This document shows, in pieces, positions 2,834 to 18,517 of a DNA stretch of 64,000 nt. This DNA comes from Sanghuangporus weigelae (Eukaryota; Basidiomycota; Agaricomycetes; Hymenochaetales; Hymenochaetaceae): the NCBI GenBank assembly GCA_033182465.1, contig CP137321.1, positions 2,790,001-2,854,000 on the forward strand, given 5' to 3'. How positions within the stretch are numbered: position 1 is the stretch's first letter; each line of letters opens with the position of its first letter. A program made the position numbers and the translations under genes. The notes under the pieces are model-generated. The model saw only the letters and a program-made list of their open reading frames with translations. It made no database searches and was not told the origin of the DNA.

Positions 2834-5800
2834 ATGGCTTCAAGTTCTTTCATGTCCGAAAATCAATCTTTTTCGGAGGCGAATTCTAGCTGGGCGTCTC
2901 TCATCGTCGATCAAGTCCAAAATGCCCTCGAAGATGAAGAATATAAAACTATTCTGGAGTTCAACACTGATGCTGGTGAACATAGCACGCCAGCTAAATC
3001 GTAAGCAGGTGTCTAATGTTACCTTGAAAAAACATTTATGCACCCCTGTTTTTTTCAGATTCAGTCGGTCAAACCAGCAGGTGGACATGAGAACCTTCGA
3101 GCAGATCCTGCAAGTAATGATACAGCAAGGAGCTGCCTTAGACAGGCTTCACGAAGAGCTCGATCAGTATCGCCAAGAATGTAGACAACAGCTTGAATAC
3201 CGTGACACGCGTCTTCGCTTAGCCGAGAAGGAGTTACTCTCTCTACGTGCGGATAAAGAGAAAACAATGTCTGAGCTCGAGGAGCTTGAAGGAGAACTTG
3301 GAGCACTAAAAGCTATAGACGAAGAACCTACGTCTGCAAATGTCTTGACTAGGGAGGAGCACGACCGTATCGTACGCCGCATTAAGGATGATGCCAGAGC
3401 GCGAATCGAGAATATTGAGGCCCAGAAGTCTCATGTTACGGTCCAGCTTTCTCAACTCCAGATCCAAGTCGCTCAACTGAAAAACCAAATTGACGACAAA
3501 AGCTATCCCGAAGAGGTTATTGAGAATCTCACCCAGACTCTACGATATACTATCATTGAGACCTGTAAAAATGGTTAGCTCAATTAGCGGTCATAACAAC
3601 TGCCTGCACTCACCGATGTACTAGCGGATGTTGAAGCTCAAGCGGTGAAACAGGTCGGTCCGTCGATCATCGTACCAAGCCTCCTTCTAACGATGTGGAA
3701 CAGGAACTTGCTGCGACTCGACAACACCTGTCAGAGCGTAAGTGAACTTAAGTATCTTTGGAAATTTTGCTGAAGCACTTACCGTTTGTACAGGAGAAGT
3801 GGAGCTGGAGCTCACCCGCAACGTCAGTAGTGCGTCCCTGTCACTCCGAGCGAAGCTGATTTTCGTCTCTAGGCTCGAGATAATGCAGAAAATGAGATGG
3901 AGGAGCGTAAGTCATGGTAAATGATCGGGAACAAAACCTTTTTGCGATATCTCTTTTTAGTCAAAACAAGTCTTGAGGAGCTCCGTTTCGTAAGCTATCT
4001 TCCTGCCTTTCCGCTGTCAATATGCACCTTAGAGACCTTTCAGGAATATGATGCTATACTTGAACGTCTAGCGATTTGTGAGTACCGTCGGCATTTCCAG
4101 CTTACACGTTTTACAAGCGATTTCACACAGCGGAATCAATGCAAAGCCGAGCTGAAGCTAATGAGGTAGGTCTTGAGACATACCGTGGCATGAGTGTTAA
4201 TCACCATACATTTCACGTAGGAAGCGTTAAGAGCAACTCAGAATGAGGCTCAGCATCGTAGGTGTCTCGTCTCGCGTTTGGAAGCAACTCACGAAAAGGA
4301 ATCTTCCATGAAGTTCAAATACAATTATCGGAAGTTGAAGTTGAGCGAAATCAAGGTAAATTGGGTCTGTTGTCTATTCCAAGTCAATACTTACCCGGTA
4401 CGAATAAACGCAGCTCTTTCGGATTGCCAAAATTTCCGCGATGTATGTAAATCGACATACGATCACTATGATAAACTCAAAATCACTCCTAGTCCCTGAA
4501 CAGAAGGGAATGGACTTGTCAGTAAAGACATATTCCTGTTCATTGCCCTCAGCTTATGTGCATTTAGCGCCTTTGAGAATGGAGTCGTCTGTGGATGTGA
4601 GTAAAATCGTCGCTTATGGCACTTCCCTTTTCTGACTCGTTTGAGCCCAGGTTTCCATTCAAACCGAAGAACAAGTAGCCGCGCTTCATGAAGAGCGAGA
4701 TGCGGGTAAGTGCGACCACTAGATGTCTACTAGGTCTCCGTGGATAACATGGTCCCGACTTTAGCCCTCGCAGAAGCTGAGCGCCTTCGTTCTGTAAGTC
4801 TCACAACTCGTAACGCAATGAGCATCGTCAGGCTAATCTCATGCAGAATGTCTCTGAGTCATCACAGTCGGATACTGCGCGTATGTACATCATAAAACAT
4901 TTTCTTACCCTGTATCCAACAGCTTCTCACAGTAATCGAAGAGATTAAGAAGCTCAAACAAGTATGTGTCAGGTACAGTAATACTGCTTCTATCTGACGG
5001 TGAAATCGCCTGCGTAGGATCTGAAGGATGTGGAAGGACAGCGCGATGAAGGTGCGTCTCTTCCCACGTCAGGACTCGCAGTATCTAATTCTCTCAAAGC
5101 CGAGCGTGCGTCCAAAGAGACTGAAACTGTCCGTGACACCATTTTCGTCTTGATTTCTGAAAGTACTTATTTCTCGATCAGGAACTTGACGGAATCCGGG
5201 AGCGAGTCGACGAACGTATGTCCAATCGTTAGCAAAAAGTCATCGTTCACTAATTCCTCTTATCCTAGTGGGTAAGACACTCGAAAGGGCTCTTGCCGTG
5301 AGTCGTTTCTCTCTACATTGAGGCATACATGATTGATGATCATCTAGGACTTGGATGCGATGAGGACACGCCGTTCAGAAAGTAAGGCATCTTCAAAGTG
5401 CGAATAGCTGCAAATTCATTATTCATTATTAGTCGAAAAAGAAGTGCACGTTCTGAAAGAGGTGAGGATTCGGCCAAATAGATAATAATCTCAAAGGCTG
5501 AGATATAGTTAGGATCTTCGCGCCGCTGAAGAGAAACTGGACGCAGGCACGTTCTCTCTTATGCAAAGTCATAAACCCTGATTGACCTTGTTAACTTTAG
5601 CCGTGAAGGAAGCTGCACAGGAGAAAGAGGTGACGTCTTTTCCAGTCGATGACACTTTCCGGCTGACGATCTGCTAGGAGCTGGAATCTGCAAATGCTCG
5701 TAATTCTCAGCGTAAGTAGGTTGTTGAAAAATAGGGACTACTAACTCACCCTTCCCTAAACAGTGGAAGACGATGTGAAGACCTTGAAAGAGGTACATAC

Positions 5801-8800
5801 TAGGCCAAGCGTATCTAATAAGACACTTAACTCTTCTTTAGGAGCTGCGGAGTGCCGAAGAGCAGGCTAAGGAGTGTGAGTGGTGCTCTGTCAACTTAAA
5901 GAATACCCTGCTTACTTGATTCTAGTAAACGAAGCACTTGAGAGGGAGCAGGAGGTATTGCTCCTTTTTCGAGCTGTGATATAGGTAGCTGATGCATTAT
6001 TAGACTTCAACGGAAAGCATGCGTCTCCGAACACAAGGTAAGGTGTCTATTGAAGCGTATCCACAGGTCCTTACATATCCGTGAACAGTCGAGGAGGAAT
6101 TGAAAGCTCTTCAGGCTGTGGGTAATGTAGTCGTGGTCGATTCTACTCGCAACTGAAATTGTCTTGTTAGCAATACTCGGAACAAGCTCGACTTGTCACG
6201 CAAGGTAGACCGAAAATCTCTGTTCACCAATTTTTTGTTAATACTCGAATAGGTGCACAGAAAGCTCAGACATTACAGATGGTTCGTCAATATTTGCTGG
6301 ACTTCCTGCTTCAATACCAATGCACATTATCCAGAAACTCGATGAGGAGGAGCAAAAGTCGTCTGCATCGAGTGCCGAGTTAATGAAAACGAAGAACCAG
6401 TTGACGGAACGTAGGTCAGATGCGCGTATCCTCGTGCATGTTGCTGATTGCCATTACCAGAAGTGGAATCTAATACTTCGGAGTTGGAGAAGGCTCGCGC
6501 ATCATTGCAAGAAGTGAAAGATGGCCGTGATCAAGGTATGTCGGATCTGAACTTTCGTCCTGACGAACAGCAACTAAAGAGTGCTACAGTCGAGGCACGT
6601 CTCCTGGAGATCACTTGTATTCTGCAGAAGACAGAAAGGGAGCGCAATAGCAGTGAGTTCACTTAAAGTTAAAGGCGAATACGACGATGATGTTTCATAC
6701 AGTCGAGGCCCAGTTGAAGATAGCTCAAGCCGCACTTGAGAGTGCTAGCCAACAGCAAAGCGAAGGTCCGGATTGCGTGTGAACTCAACAGATAACATCT
6801 AACTCATTCATATAGTGGAGTCGGAACGAGAGCAAAGCGTTCTGAGTAAAGAAGCAGAACTTCAAAGAATCAAGGCCGAACTGCAGACAGAAATCGACTC
6901 TCTTAAAGTTTCGTTGGAAGAAGCTAAGGAACAGATAAACAAAGGTATTCATGAAATCCAATATGTTGCGCTGATGCTCATTGGTTACCATAGAGGTCAG
7001 ACTGCGGACTGAAGCAGTGAAAGCCGCAGAAGATGAGAAGGCGAGACTGCTGGAAGGTAGACGACTCCTTTGTTAAGCAAACTACGCTTCTGATCATATC
7101 GGCAGAGGCAAGAAAACTTGAATCCGAACTGAGTGAGGCGAGAAGGCGGGCTATTGATTGTGTGTGATGTTTCCATCGAAACTCAAAAGTACATTAAATT
7201 TTCTGCTAGCGGACGAAAAGGGCAAGAAGGACCGTACGGAAGGTACGTATGGTGACGCTTCCTTTGTCTCTTTCTGACGCCAAAGTAATATAGTGGCAGC
7301 TAAGGACAGAGAGATCGAGGGACTTCAGGGTGCCCTCAGAGTGGCAGAAAATGGTCGCAAAGAAGGTATACATCTTGTATTGGACGATTAGGCAACAGCC
7401 TGACAATATTCATGAGCTCTGAGAGAAAATGAACGCATCCGGTTGAAGTATGCAGAAGCAGAGGGTAACCGAGCGGAAGGTATATTGTCCTCATTTCTCT
7501 TATTCAGCCGTTCCTATTGATTTCTTGGTGGTAGCTGACATGCTGAATGAAGAGTTGCAACAAGTATGACTCTTTTCCGGTTATTAAGACGTTTAGCTCA
7601 TAAACTCTTTTTAGAAACTATCGGAGTTAGAGGAGGATGCAAAAAAGGCATCTTCTTTGGAGTCGGACCTACAAAGCAGTACGAGTCATAATCGCCTTGC
7701 TTAGGTTATTTCCGCTGATCGTTTGTCTGTATAGCCCAAGCCCAACTAGCTCAGGCTATGGAGGTATGTCGTATTTTCACGCGCTTTGTTCAGGGTTGAT
7801 CCGTAGTTTCGTCAGTCTATGAACGTCGCCAAGGACCAAGCTTCAAAATGTGAGCTACAACATCTCTCATCTTCCTGTCTGCTGACTCTTTGGCTGGATA
7901 GACTCGATGGAGATCGCTCAAAATAAAACGGCAAGTGCCATCAGCGTGAAATGCCAAGATACTCATGAAAGTGCACCACAGATGATCGCAGAGTTACGTG
8001 CTGAAAACGAGCAGCTAATAGCTGCACGCCAAAAGGTCCGCTAGAAGCCCGCTCTCGAACACTCTCTCGGCTCATGCTGACACGTTGCTTTCAAGATGGC
8101 TGCAATTTATGGCCTACCTGCTGAGTCACTGAATTCGCCCCGACACACGCCAACGCGAGTGATCCCTACTACGCCAGTGAGAAGCTCGCAGTCATTATCT
8201 CCATCAACGAGTTCTGGTCCGTTGCAGTGGTTAGAGTATCCTGTACCTCCAGCACCTCCAACAAAACGTAGGAGGATTTCGAAGCAGCCGATAGCAGGAA
8301 GCTCTGGCAATGTAGTGGCTGGAACATCTCCTGCATCTGCCATCCTCCTAGACGAAGCAGACGATCGAATGTCCACACCTCCGCCGTCGCCGATAAAGAA
8401 AGAGCAGAATGGCGATATTCCTCGACATATGGTCGAATTATGCTCGACATTTGCGAGGCTGTCGACGTGGCAAGACGACGAGGGTCGATATCTCTGCGGT
8501 CTTTGCACGTATGTCTTGCCTATCGTTCAGGTCGCTCGTTTACAGTATAACCTCACTTCTCAGGCTGCATAATTCCAAACATGCGAGGGACCGCCGCACT
8601 CCGCTCACATTTGACCCTTCGCAGTATCCGATAACATTCTGGAAGCACTGCCTCATGCTGCACAAGGATGCCTTGAAACCTGACATTGAAACGTGGCTCA
8701 AGGCAGATGGTCCAACGTTATCAGTAAGTCGACAAGCCGATTGTGAAGCCCCTCACCTGGTTACATTCGTTTTTCTTTAGGAGTCCGATCCGTCAAATGA

Positions 8801-9063
8801 TCTCCCGTCAATACTGGTGAACTTCATTGCGTGTAAGGGCGAAGCGGGGTACACATGTGGCTTGTGCGAGTGAGTGAACAATCCGCCTTTCCTCGTCGAG
8901 AAAAGCGCTGATGGTGTTCACTTGTCCTGTCCGCATCGAAAGATTGGAGAACAACATTACTGGCAACCGCAGGCCTATAGATTTCGACCCCTTTACCGAA
9001 CCGATTCTGTTATGGACGCATTGTCACAGAGAGCATGTACCGTTCTGGAAGCCTATCTCTTAG
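2834..9063 (+). CDS. Long coiled-coil protein with ~54 exons, many of 29 or 34 nt, and two C-terminal Cys/His modules
   Basis: I do not recognise the family. Splicing by eye gives about 54 exons that sum to 3417 nt (1138 codons plus stop) with the frame open throughout. Exon 1 is 2834-3000 (MASSSFMSENQ) and exon 2 is 3059-3573; both are acidic and then heptad-rich (LRLAEKELLSLRADKEK). From 3625 to about 8030 the gene is a chain of tiny exons encoding an almost unbroken Glu/Lys/Leu coiled coil. Exon 8096-8508 is a disordered Ser/Pro-rich linker with a basic patch (TKRRRISK, a possible nuclear signal) and ends in YLCGLC. Exons 8564-8723, 8781-8869 and 8973-9063 complete two similar modules, each with CGLC, then FDP..PI..W.HC...H, which could bind zinc. 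Two introns use GC donors (5547, 7931). A filamentous or scaffold role, perhaps nuclear, is inference only. An alternative is an early stop at 8871 if the last intron is not removed. Confidence 0.8.
4765..6281 (+). repeat. Array of 19 microexons alternating 29 nt and 34 nt (period 63 nt coding, about 165 nt genomic)
   Basis: Nineteen consecutive exons alternate 29, 34, 29, 34 nt without exception. The 29-nt exons run phase 1 to phase 0 and the 34-nt exons run phase 0 to phase 1. The 29-nt exons start at 4765, 4933, 5100, 5269, 5433, 5601, 5764, 5926, 6089 and 6253, giving a genomic spacing of 162-169 nt. Each pair encodes 21 residues, which is three heptads. The exon sequences have diverged but share a pattern such as (V/L/I)E.E...L.E in the 29-nt exon. 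The intron sequences show no obvious similarity to one another. Confidence 0.85.
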
Positions 9064-9398: not shown

Positions 9399-11573
9399 TC
9401 ATCGCGAATAAGGATGGTAGTTGTGTCCCCTCTGCGTCCTTTGCGGACCGATTCCCTGTGGGCCACCTGAGCCTCCACGAGGTCCACGAGGAGCGTTCAT
9501 AGGCCCACCAGCACCCATCATACCAGCACTACCCATACCACCACGGCCACCCATAGGACTGCCCATGCCAATCATACCACCACCTCCACCACCGCCCATA
9601 CGTCCCATACCTCCTCCCATACCGCCACTCATGCCACTCATTCCAGGAGCCATACCCATACCACTGCCCATAGCTCCTCCCATACCACCACCCATCCCGC
9701 CCATCATATTAGCCATAGCACCCATGTTGCCCATACCTCCCATCCCGGCCGCACCTCCAAACTGCTGGAACATACGCGTGTAGAGCTGCGCGAGGGCCTG
9801 CGGGTCGAAAGGTGTCCCCCCTGCCGCTGCTCCAGTGGCTTGACCGGTCTGTGCGCTCGCAACAGCTGCGAAACCGGCGCCACTAGCGCCGCCACCTGTC
9901 CCGTAGGAGTCAGTGTGCTGCCCGCCACTGTAGCCTCCGCCTCTAGGGTTGTAGTTTCCTCCTCCATCACCCTCGCGTTGATGACGAGGTTGAGCAAGTT
10001 TGACGTCAATCTGCGGAGAAAGAGTAATGAGTAACTCAAATCTCAGGAAGATATTACAACCACTTGCCATCTTGCCATCAATCTCAAGGTTCCCAAAACC
10101 AAGTAGAGGTTCAACGTTTGTATTCTCAAACGAGACAAAGCCGAAACCTTTGCTCCTCCCTGTCTCGCGGTCAAGCATGACCGTAGAATCAATGACCGTC
10201 CCATATTGCGAGAAGTATTCGCGCATTGATTCCGACGTGACTGTCCCCGCTAAACCACCTATGAAAAGTTTCTGAGCCTTCTGGTGCTCTGACCTAGGAA
10301 TTGCACGTTTCGGGTCGATCTAATTTTAATGAAATGAAGCACGAAAGCTTAGAGGACCTCTTCGTGTCGTGAATAATTATATATTCACTCACTATTTTAC
10401 CATCTAAAACATGCTCGCGGACCATTACAGCATTTACCGAAGCAGGATCTTCGAATGTGAGAAATGCAAAGCAACGCGAACGACCGGTAGCATCCCTCAT
10501 GATGGTACAAGCCTCAACCTTTCCGAATTTTTCAAAGTACTTCTTCAGCCCCTCTACATTAGACGAGATGAGTTTAATCGGACTATGTATCAAAATGAAA
10601 AGGAGAATGGCTAGCTACCATCTGTAGTATCCCAATTTAAACCACCAATGAACATTTTCCTGGATAATATATATTATTGTAAGTTACGATATTCTGGGAT
10701 TCGGAAAATCGATCAAATTCGAAGTGGACTTGGGTGCAAAGCTTCATCATCGTATTCGTATTCGTTCGGCTGGCTATACCGCTAGATACGTTAACGACGA
10801 CACTGGGATAGAACCATGTACTTGTCTGTCTCTTTCTAGGGAAGTCTCCTAGCCTAGCCTAGCCTAGACGAAAGGATGCAAAGCCTACGGAGAAGTTACT
10901 CAAGCCAGTCGCGACTAAAGCCGGCGCGAGTCGGTGAATACGACAAGAGGTGATTCTACCACGAAACAGCTAACAGCTATCGTCCGCAGATACTTCCGGG
11001 TCCCAACTTGAACTATCCAAAAAGTGTGGAAAGACGAGACATGGCTCGTCTCCCCAACCCCGAGCCGACTCCCAGAAAACACTAAACACTACGATAGTAC
11101 TCACCCTTCATCCTTCATCTCCGATGGCCTGATATGCCGATCCACAATGGGCAACGAGGGAATACTCTGCTGATTCAGGTCGCGCTGTGGCTGACTCTGG
11201 TAACCTTGATTGATTCTTGATGAGTAGTCAGGAGTAGAAGACTGGTAAGACTGGATCGGTTGGGGTGCATTGCCATTTGTGAATGTTGGTATTGGCAAAG
11301 TCTCTTTCTGGTCAATAGACGTTTGGGGTGGCGGCGGGGACTTGGCCTGCTCAGTTGCAGCCGGCGTGGCGGTAACAGTTGCAGTCAACAACTCCGCTGG
11401 CTTTTCAGGGGGCTGTTCCTCTAAATTTGTCTCTTTCGCCTCTTCTGTCGGGACAGAGAAGTCGTTCTCGTCACCATAAAGATCTGAGTTGTGGCTCGAA
11501 AATGAGGAGAGCACATTCATTGCTGAGCTTTTCTGCACTTACCTCCGTACAGGTCAGCGTCGAGGTCGGACAT
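9399..11573 (-). CDS. HRP1: Hrp1/Nab4-like hnRNP with two RRM domains and a Gly/Met-rich tail
   Basis: The protein is an RNA-binding protein of the Hrp1 (cleavage factor IB)/DAZAP1 type, which in yeast binds the AU-rich polyadenylation efficiency element and shuttles between nucleus and cytoplasm. The first exon (11573-11563, MSDLDADLYG) joins an exon ending at about 11104, rich in Pro, Gln and Glu. An unusually long intron of about 440 nt follows, and then RRM1 begins with KMFIGGLNWDTTD. RRM1 has RNP2 MFIGGL and an atypical RNP1, RCFAFLTF, with Cys and Ala where Gly is usual. The linker IDPKRAIPRSE is typical of Hrp1. RRM2 has LFIGGL and a canonical KGFGFVSF and ends in IDVKLAQPRHQ. The last ~190 residues are Gly-rich and then (Met-Gly-Gly)n, ending RGHNYHPYSR. 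Musashi-like proteins are an alternative, but the RRM1 and linker motifs favour Hrp1. Confidence 0.85.
10849..10868. repeat. (TAGCC)n microsatellite inside the long Hrp1 intron
   Basis: Four tandem TAGCC-type pentamers lie in the middle of the ~440-nt intron of the Hrp1-like gene. They read GGCTA repeats on the coding strand. Confidence 0.7.
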
Positions 11574-16600: not shown

Positions 16601-18517
16601 TCAAGCAAACAGTCTCTTCGTGTATCTGCAGCGAGGCAAAATCAATACTCATTCATGACGTACCATAGGCAAGGACCATTACTTACGAATGCAACCCATG
16701 AACACCTCCCTCAATTTGAGCACTTGCCGTGCGCAGCTCAAAGCGGACCTTGCCCTCTCGCACAGCAGCCTGCATTTCGCCAATGCTACGATATCCAATA
16801 TCTTGCAGCGAGTGCTGCAGGCCCGCATGTAGGTACGGAAGGAACTGCTTAACGGAACCCTTATCCTGTACGTCACCCGAAACGCCCTGCGCAACTTTGA
16901 CAGCGCTCGCTTCACTGAAGTAACGCGAGGTCGCGGCGTTTTCTTGGATATAATTCTGTATGCCGTTTGGCTGTGTCTTGCCAGTACCGCTGGAACCGGG
17001 CTTTCCTTGCTCCATGGCCTCGATGCTGCCCATTCCGCGATACGCCTTCACGCGCTTGCCCTCGTGGTAGAAATACTCTCCAGGTGCCTCGGTCGTACCT
17101 GCGAGCAAGCCTCCCATCATCACCGCACCTGCTCCAAGAGCGATAGCTTTGACAATGTGACCTACGTTACTGATTCCGCCGTCCGCAATGACTGGAACGC
17201 CAAAGTGCCGTGCAAATTCTGCGACGGCGTAGACAGCTGTAGCTTGCGGGCGGCCGACGGCCATGACCTCCTGCGTGATACAGATACTACCCGAACCCAT
17301 ACCAATACGGAGCCCGTCTGCACCTGCCGCAATTAGCGATGCAGCTTGCTCCCGCGTGACGACATTTCCAGCGATAACTTCGAGGTGCGGGTACGTCTTT
17401 TTGATCCATTCTATCATCTCGATTTGGAAGACAGAGTTACCCTGCGAGGAGTCAATGATGGCAATGTCCAGTCCTGCATCGATGAGCAGAGCAAGACGCT
17501 GCCTATCGACGGGACGTGTACCAATTGCCGCTGCAGCGTAAAGTTGCTTGCTCTCTGGCAACTTCGAAGCAAGTGGATAGTTCTGGTTTTTAAGCAGGTC
17601 CGAGCGAGCGAGGAGCGCAACAAGGTTGCCTTCCCTGTCGACAATGGGAAGTTTGCCCTTCTTGGAGTCGCGAAGGATTTCGTTGGCTTGCTGTAACGTG
17701 ATGCCTACGGGTGCAGTGACGAGGTTCTTCGTCATGACCTCCGTTAGAGGTGTCGACGGGTCACGGAACTGCACGTCTCGGTTCGTGACAATACCCAGAA
17801 GCTTTCCGCCAAGAGAGCCGGTATCTATGGATTTCAATTAGTACTAATATTGTGACTTTTTACGTGCTCGAGAGAAGAAGAATCAGATAATTTTATCAAT
17901 GTTATCTACTTGTCACGCAGAACTACCGCGTTTATTCAGTAGAACGAAGGTTAAAAAGGAAATGGTTCATCACGAACGGTAAAATTGCAGCTGATGCTTA
18001 CCAGTAATAGGAATACCACTAAATCCATGGCGCGTTTTAATGTCCAGAACGTCCTCTACGATGTGACCGGGTGAAAGGACGACAGGATCGGTGATAAAGC
18101 CATTCTCGTGCCTCTTTACGGCACGGACCATCGCCGCCTGGGCGCTCGCAGGCTGATTGTGATGGATAACGCCAATACCTCCCAGCAGCTATTCACCATT
18201 CCACTTCTCAGTACACCGCCACAAAGACGAGGATGCTGACTCACCGCCATTGCGATAGCCATCTCCTTCTCTGTGACTGTATCCATAGGACTACTCATAA
18301 ACGGCGTTTTGAGAACGACATTACGCGTGATACGCGTCTCTGTTACAACTTCTTGAGCAGCAAAATCGACCTTGCCAGGAAGAAGGAGGAAGTCATTGTA
18401 CGTGAGTCCGCCATGTCTCTCTGAGTTCATGAGCTCCGGCGCAGATAAACCGTCTGCTCTGCTGTACGTCTCAAGAAACTGCAGTGCATCCTTTGGATCC
18501 AAGTAGCTCGTCGACAT
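16601..18517 (-). CDS. IMD: IMP dehydrogenase
   Basis: The enzyme oxidises IMP to XMP with NAD+, the rate-limiting step of guanine nucleotide synthesis, in the cytosol. The start [11 protein letters not shown] is at 18517. Exon 1 carries [11 protein letters not shown] and [13 protein letters not shown] second exon (about 18190-18003) gives [12 protein letters not shown] and the start of the CBS pair ([13 protein letters not shown]). The long exon from about 17827 has the rest of the CBS domains, [27 protein letters not shown] with the catalytic Cys, PVIADGGI and the flap [11 protein letters not shown] final tiny exon, missed if one stops at the first in-frame stop, gives the canonical ending YTKRLFA and stops at 16601. 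Domain order and length match eukaryotic IMPDH. Confidence 0.95.

Follow-up and report, generated by a model that had tools for sequence, protein, structure and literature searches.

Alternating 29- and 34-nucleotide exons and heptad register in a predicted coiled-coil gene of Sanghuangporus weigelae

How can exon lengths stay exact along a series of exons whose sequences have drifted far apart, and how would such a series have arisen? The question is raised by a predicted gene on the + strand of contig CP137321.1 (assembly GCA_033182465.1) of the basidiomycete Sanghuangporus weigelae. It lies in a stretch of 64,000 nucleotides (nt; contig positions 2,790,001 to 2,854,000) that was analysed as a whole and is called the window here; all coordinates are positions within it. 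The gene opens with an ATG at 2834 and closes with a stop codon that ends at 9063, and at its centre is a run of nineteen very small exons that alternate between 29 and 34 nt (the strict array, 4765-6281). From the sequence we propose, with moderate confidence, that the gene would encode a long coiled-coil rod, and that its middle part (3625-7849) may be an old tandem array of a 63-nt unit bounded by phase-1 introns, held in length by the register of the coiled coil.

All nineteen exons that a first-pass annotation of the DNA had read in the strict array are present, ten of 29 nt and nine of 34 nt in strict alternation, with the 29-nt exons running from phase 1 to phase 0 and the 34-nt exons from phase 0 to phase 1, and with GT-AG or GC-AG borders as claimed (the single GC donor is at 5547). 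The exons are exact to the base, and the 18 introns between them are 48-56 nt long. The same alternation had been reported for 3625-4077 and is found there too. Its interruption by exons of odd length also holds (4131-4705), except that these range over 25-55 nt in the present model and not over 25-57 nt. We regard the alternating exon pattern as confirmed in the sense of splice-compatible sequence, the introns themselves being predicted. The parts of the gene are as follows.

2834..9063, + strand: the gene as predicted, with 53 exons, 52 introns and 1160 amino acids (aa); an ab initio model with manual choices
2834..3573, + strand: N-terminal part, exons 1 and 2 of 167 and 515 nt; the model places no intron within exon 2
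3625-3653, 3704-3737, 3794-3822, 3873-3906, 3961-3989, 4044-4077, + strand: first 29/34 block, from the curated exon table
4131..4705, + strand: irregular block, exons of 35, 37, 42, 29, 25, 29 and 55 nt
4765-4793, 4847-4880, 4933-4961, 5018-5051, 5100-5128, 5182-5215, 5269-5297, 5348-5381, 5433-5461, 5513-5546, + strand: strict array, exons 1-10, alternating 29/34
5601-5629, 5678-5711, 5764-5792, 5842-5875, 5926-5954, 6004-6037, 6089-6117, 6171-6204, 6253-6281, + strand: strict array, exons 11-19, alternating 29/34
6335..7479, + strand: inner phase-0 intron absent from the units; exons of 76, 75, 63, 63, 129, 63, 54, 33, 72 and 63 nt
7535..7849, + strand: return of the two-exon unit, exons of 29, 64, 29 and 34 nt
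7902..9063, + strand: C-terminal part, as read from the sequence

In the curated exon table, the choice among competing splice sites was guided partly by the fit to a coiled coil and by the pattern itself. It can be set beside a dynamic-programming gene model that is blind to exon length, uses generic, hand-set splice weights with no training on this genome, and takes its codon usage from other long open reading frames (ORFs) in the window. This blind model recovers 16 of the 19 exons exactly and as separate exons at the two lower of three intron costs, and 14 of them at the highest. At the lowest cost the predicted gene has 52 exons and reaches 9063; both higher costs shorten it, to 45 or 42 exons with an end at 8873. 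Exons 5018-5051 and 5100-5128 come out as one in this model, and 6261-6410 stands where the curated table has 6253-6281 and the exon that follows. Intron posteriors, calculated at two settings, are at least 0.63 for 16 of the 18 introns inside the strict array; intron 5052-5099 drops from 0.19 at one setting to less than 0.1 at the other, and for intron 6205-6252 and the closing intron 6282-6334 the posterior is below 0.1. Exons 5018-5051, 5100-5128 and 6253-6281 therefore lean partly on the pattern, and 6253-6281 is the least supported of the nineteen. Elsewhere, two donors in the 3625-4077 block are ambiguous (posteriors of 0.33-0.38 for the 29-nt reading), and several exon borders in 6335-7479 have competing splice sites. 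The 52 introns of the gene have a mean length of 52.8 nt (range 48-73). With the curated table, 48 of them would bring in a stop codon or a frameshift if retained; four would leave the frame open, 5052-5099 and 6205-6252 among them.

What chance provides was estimated with a scan that finds, for each pair of exon lengths between 18 and 63 nt, the longest alternating chain that can be built from an acceptor, a branch-like motif and a donor; a relaxed version permits GC donors and is less strict on the donor and the branch motif. Run on the window's + strand, the relaxed scan returns a chain of 18 exons for the pair 29/34 and at most 7 for the other 1080 pairs, and the two pairs that reach 7 both start within the same array. 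The chain begins at 4847, exon 4765-4793 being missed, presumably owing to the branch motif of its acceptor. Outside the gene, the best chain on this strand is 3 over all pairs and 2 for 29/34, and the - strand of the window, scanned for 29/34 alone, also gives 2. A stricter earlier scan (lengths 20-49 nt) had given 8 for 29/34 versus 3 for other pairs. In a genome control of 20 stretches of 10 kb, scanned on both strands for 29/34 only and amounting to 200 kb of 33.87 Mb, the longest chain is 1 in 17 and 2 in 23 of the 40 strand scans. Among 500 dinucleotide-sampled copies of 3574-7901 it is 1, 2 and 3 in 248, 232 and 20 copies, respectively, against 18 in the real sequence. We therefore judge it very unlikely that the array is an artefact of the chosen reading, with the introns in reality spliced otherwise. 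The three exons that lean partly on the pattern and the hand-set splice weights would allow for such an artefact, but 16 exons are recovered blind, chains of this length are absent from the randomised copies and from the sampled genome, and within the array the exons are poor in T (0.18) and the introns rich in it (0.32).

If the pattern is real, what keeps it exact? Cutting the predicted protein at the phase-1 introns divides 3625-7849 into 28 units, of which 17 are exactly 21 residues long. Phase-0 introns split 18 of the 28, in 17 cases exactly after residue 10. Of introns 2-48 of the gene (n = 47), 29 are in phase 1 and 18 in phase 0. The first-pass annotation had taken the unit to be three heptads (63 nt, 21 residues), with the register kept unbroken from one unit to the next, and the distribution of hydrophobic residues agrees with this. 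Among the 13 units made of 29 + 34 nt, Leu, Ile, Val, Met or Phe occupies 42 of 78 sites at unit positions 1, 5, 8, 12, 15 and 19, versus 16 of 195 sites elsewhere (Fisher p = 2e-15); in the nine strict-array units the counts are 30 of 54 core sites versus 8 of 135 others. A hydrophobic a/d pattern of the kind that defines a coiled coil is thus present over many heptads, and the enrichment at the core positions indicates that the register is continuous through the array. This spacing makes position 1 a d residue and position 5 an a residue, which places the inner intron between f and g and lets the phase-1 intron split the codon of a d residue.

The unit lengths follow the same periodicity. 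Twenty of the 28 are multiples of 7, and the other eight leave a remainder of 3, 4 or 1, the shifts known in coiled coils as stammer, stutter and skip. With all six non-zero classes taken as equally likely, the chance of finding these classes only would be 0.004, a rough figure given that the classes were named after the lengths had been seen and that a few borders are uncertain. Even the irregular block 4131-4705, with units of 24, 14, 18 and 28 residues, adds up to 84 residues, or 12 heptads. Exon lengths thus follow the periodicity of a fibrous fold, 17 of the 28 units having 21 residues and 20, these included, a multiple of 7. Sequence has not been held in the same way: mean amino acid identity is 17% among the 13 units of 29 + 34 nt, and mean nucleotide identity is 36% among the nine strict-array units, with 57% for the best pair (the units starting at 5433 and 5764). 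This fits the earlier proposal that lengths were frozen while sequence drifted, and we consider the locking of exon lengths by coiled-coil geometry to be well supported.

The exons also interlock in frame. Since 29 leaves a remainder of 2 and 34 a remainder of 1 on division by three, the pair of 63 nt keeps both frame and register, and either exon alone shifts the frame. The same arithmetic would serve a rod of adjustable length, in which pairs of exons are skipped as a matter of course, shortening the rod in steps of 21 residues, and in which this use maintains the regularity. Schistosome micro-exon genes, in the part of their published account used here, offer a precedent for varying products by way of very small symmetrical exons (PMC4350168); single exons of the present gene lack that symmetry, and we find the idea of an adjustable rod improbable.

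Another way to obtain regular exons would be a pitch imposed by DNA or chromatin, the two-exon unit with its introns approximating a nucleosome repeat and the exon lengths being a by-product. Unit pitches in the strict array are 168, 167, 169, 164, 168, 163, 162, 163 and 164 bp, and 162-169 bp is close to the nucleosome repeat length. However, it is the exons that are exact to the base and the 18 introns between them that vary (48-56 nt), and introns of about 53 nt are usual throughout the gene. The pitch probably just follows from an intron length of about 52 nt, and a chromatin explanation seems to us highly improbable.

For the origin of the array, we propose that a two-exon unit was duplicated in tandem, which would have built the rod in steps of three heptads. 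Because such a unit is bounded by phase 1 on both sides and spans three heptads, gain or loss of a whole unit keeps frame and register; a lone exon is asymmetric, and its gain or loss breaks the frame. Once the array had formed, insertions and deletions would have been purged by selection since they shift the register, so that exon lengths would freeze and sequence would drift. Some support for this scenario, which the first-pass annotation had also put forward, comes from self-comparison of the protein. The null distribution was obtained by permuting residues within fixed heptad classes, a procedure that suits the strict array but is only approximate for exon 2 and for the blocks before and after the strict array, where the register shifts or is not known. 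When lags 1-69 are ranked for the strict array, 42 and 21 come first, and both exceed the heptad-composition null (p = 0.002 and 0.005, respectively); lags 7, 14, 28, 35 and 63 are not raised. The 13 units of 29 + 34 nt score 9.33 in register; rotation by one or two heptads lowers this to 4.63, and 1 of 400 random rotations scores as high as the real arrangement. For all 17 units of 21 aa the scores are 6.59 and 2.60, with 1 of 400 rotations as high. Lag 21 is also raised over all 28 units (p = 0.0005) and in 6253-7849, after the strict array (p = 0.0005), where lag 7 is raised as well (p = 0.0075).

Several results weigh against growth by duplication. When the seven positions adjacent to junctions are masked, the 21-residue signal that unmasked self-comparison of the strict array had revealed no longer reaches significance (lag 21 p = 0.33, lag 42 p = 0.17), and for the 17 units of 21 aa 73 of 400 rotations score as high as the real one. 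As the masked register signal is weak, sequence preferences at exon ends could account for part of the signal. The four 63-nt units are mutually unlike in register (-2.5 versus 0.33 rotated), and lags 7 and 21 are not raised in 3625-4705 (p = 0.16 and 0.26). Both lags are raised in the intron-free exon 2 (3059-3573; p = 0.004 and 0.0095 for lags 7 and 21 against a null that is rough here). From exon 2 and 3625-4705 together it follows that the 21-residue signal tracks the introns only loosely, and the repeat may extend beyond the intron array into exon 2. Finally, intron similarity does not depend on class, the mean score being 9.18 within a class and 9.22 between classes.

These same results bear on the main rival explanation, in which a coiled coil with a 21-residue repeat existed first and introns entered equivalent splice-like sites unit by unit. 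Clustering of the register signal at junctions and the lack of common ancestry of introns by class are what intron gain would leave behind, and the signal in exon 2 would be expected of a protein repeat that predates the introns or reaches further than they do. On the other hand, the codons 5' of the phase-0 intron do not form a fixed site (e.g. GAG, CAA, GCC, ATG), insertion would have to account for almost every one of the 47 introns from 2 to 48, with 17 of 18 phase-0 introns at the same place in the unit, and exon 2 received none in the model. We consider intron gain unlikely, though worth keeping in mind. A recent duplication was rejected, given the nucleotide identity in the strict array (36% on average, 57% at best) and the dissimilarity of introns by class. 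Tandem duplication of the two-exon unit, if it is the origin, would be old, as the low identity between units and the unrelated introns imply, and the case for it draws mainly on common intron positions and phases; we regard it as likely.

Downstream of the strict array the unit changes form. The 76-nt exon at 6335 still completes a two-exon unit, the one that starts at 6253; from 6461 to 7479 there follow single-exon units bounded by phase-1 introns, four of them of 63 nt, and the 29-nt exon reappears twice within 7535-7849. Single-exon units compared with two-exon units score 3.52 in register and 2.35 and -2.75 when rotated, values for which no significance was computed. For the 63-nt exons of 6590-7479, the inner intron would have been lost, perhaps once, with the fused exon perhaps duplicated thereafter. 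Loss of the inner intron is the simplest reading of the single-exon units because the two-exon form flanks them on both sides. Among the two-exon units of 4131-7849, the change in length falls mostly on the second exon (25, 37, 55, 76 and 64 nt, with 34 nt in 13); the first is 29 nt in 17 of 18.

The protein is probably an extended scaffold. Its C-terminal part carries a basic stretch, KRRR, and two CxxC...HCxxxH motifs, coded at about 8488-8669 and 8850-9042; within 8429-9063 the motif copies read CGLC...HCLMLH and CGLC...HCHREH, which are zinc-finger-like. The basic stretch and the motifs suggest a nuclear, metal-binding module, so that the scaffold is perhaps nuclear, the metal-binding role of its C-terminus being a guess from these motifs. 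The C-terminal part has no Pfam family above cut-off (two matches are sub-threshold) and no PDB family (best E = 0.52), and the array protein has no PDB sequence match at E = 0.001. With the whole protein, Fez1 (PF06818) reached 17.2 bits against a gathering cut-off of 34.4 (E = 0.0074) and was rejected. In searches of its own genome, exon 2 and the C-terminus each match this locus only. A translated genome search with the spliced array found nothing, its own locus included, and is thus uninformative on other arrays. For the C-terminal part, none of 16 pattern stretches in genome contigs was confirmed as a relative. Two loci on viral contigs, one with 38% identity over 41 query residues and the other with 41% over 34, were taken as chance matches, their E values of 3e-4 and 5e-4 having been computed against the candidates only.

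Two neighbouring ORFs lie on the - strand. That at 9399-10226, with an RRM-like start and a tail rich in glycine and methionine, resembles an RNA-binding protein of the hnRNP type; that at 16683-17837 resembles IMP dehydrogenase. A tRNA scan run with bacterial settings, which says little here, found none.

If RNA confirms the exons, the gene would show from nature how a coiled coil can grow longer, in whole steps of three heptads that exon pairs carry, with insertions and deletions filtered by register. Exon tables across related fungi would then measure gain and loss of units, loss of the inner intron and the register shifts that are tolerated. There is also a warning for annotation, in that a translated genome search with the spliced array misses its own locus.

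How does this gene compare with known systems, in so far as the parts of the published accounts drawn on here describe them? Among fungi, 41 P450 genes of the white-rot basidiomycete Phanerochaete contain exons no longer than 29 bp, and introns of 45-55 bp are common (PMC1184071). These exons are similarly small, but the part of that account examined describes no array or periodic unit. In Cryptococcus the most intron-rich gene reported has 42 introns (PMC3990503), compared with 52 predicted here. A shallow search of the open literature on microexon genes, exon-duplicated coiled-coil genes and exon-rich fungal genes found no coiled-coil gene of either kind, which is no proof of absence.

The first-pass annotation knew of no described gene with this architecture, which is too strong in principle, as fibrillar collagen genes, schistosome micro-exon genes and the bicycle and megacycle genes of aphids are relatives in kind. 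In schistosome micro-exon genes most of the coding region consists of very small exons that are individually symmetrical and alternatively spliced (PMC4350168), whereas here only pairs of exons are symmetrical. Aphid bicycle genes, implicated as gall effectors, have many microexons and a uniform structure that has outlived their sequence, and megacycle has more than 100 microexons and about 2000 aa (PMC9168663). However, internal exons of bicycle genes are nearly all of one phase, in contrast to the 29 phase-1 and 18 phase-0 introns of the present gene, which alternate in the strict array, and no rule of coiled-coil register appears in the part of the account examined (PMC9168663).

The closest described case in principle is fibrillar collagen. 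Its rod domain had 57 exons ancestrally, with exons of 45 and 54 bp; exons were added only in steps that fit the geometry of the helix, some were later fused, and exon sequence no longer reveals the order of duplication (PMC4450265). Both genes would code for a rod with exons of two standard lengths. The fold is a coiled coil here and a triple helix there, the organism a fungus here and an animal there, and 29 and 34 nt alternate strictly, each out of frame alone, while 45 and 54 bp are both multiples of three. The kind is thus already known in collagen; what looks new is its coiled-coil version, with paired, asymmetric microexons. We tentatively suggest that the collagen rule may have a fungal counterpart here, and that this gene may be the first on record whose long array of microexons, paired and each frame-breaking on its own, owes its lengths to the geometry of an alpha-helical coiled coil, with the structure of the gene outlasting almost all likeness in sequence among its units.

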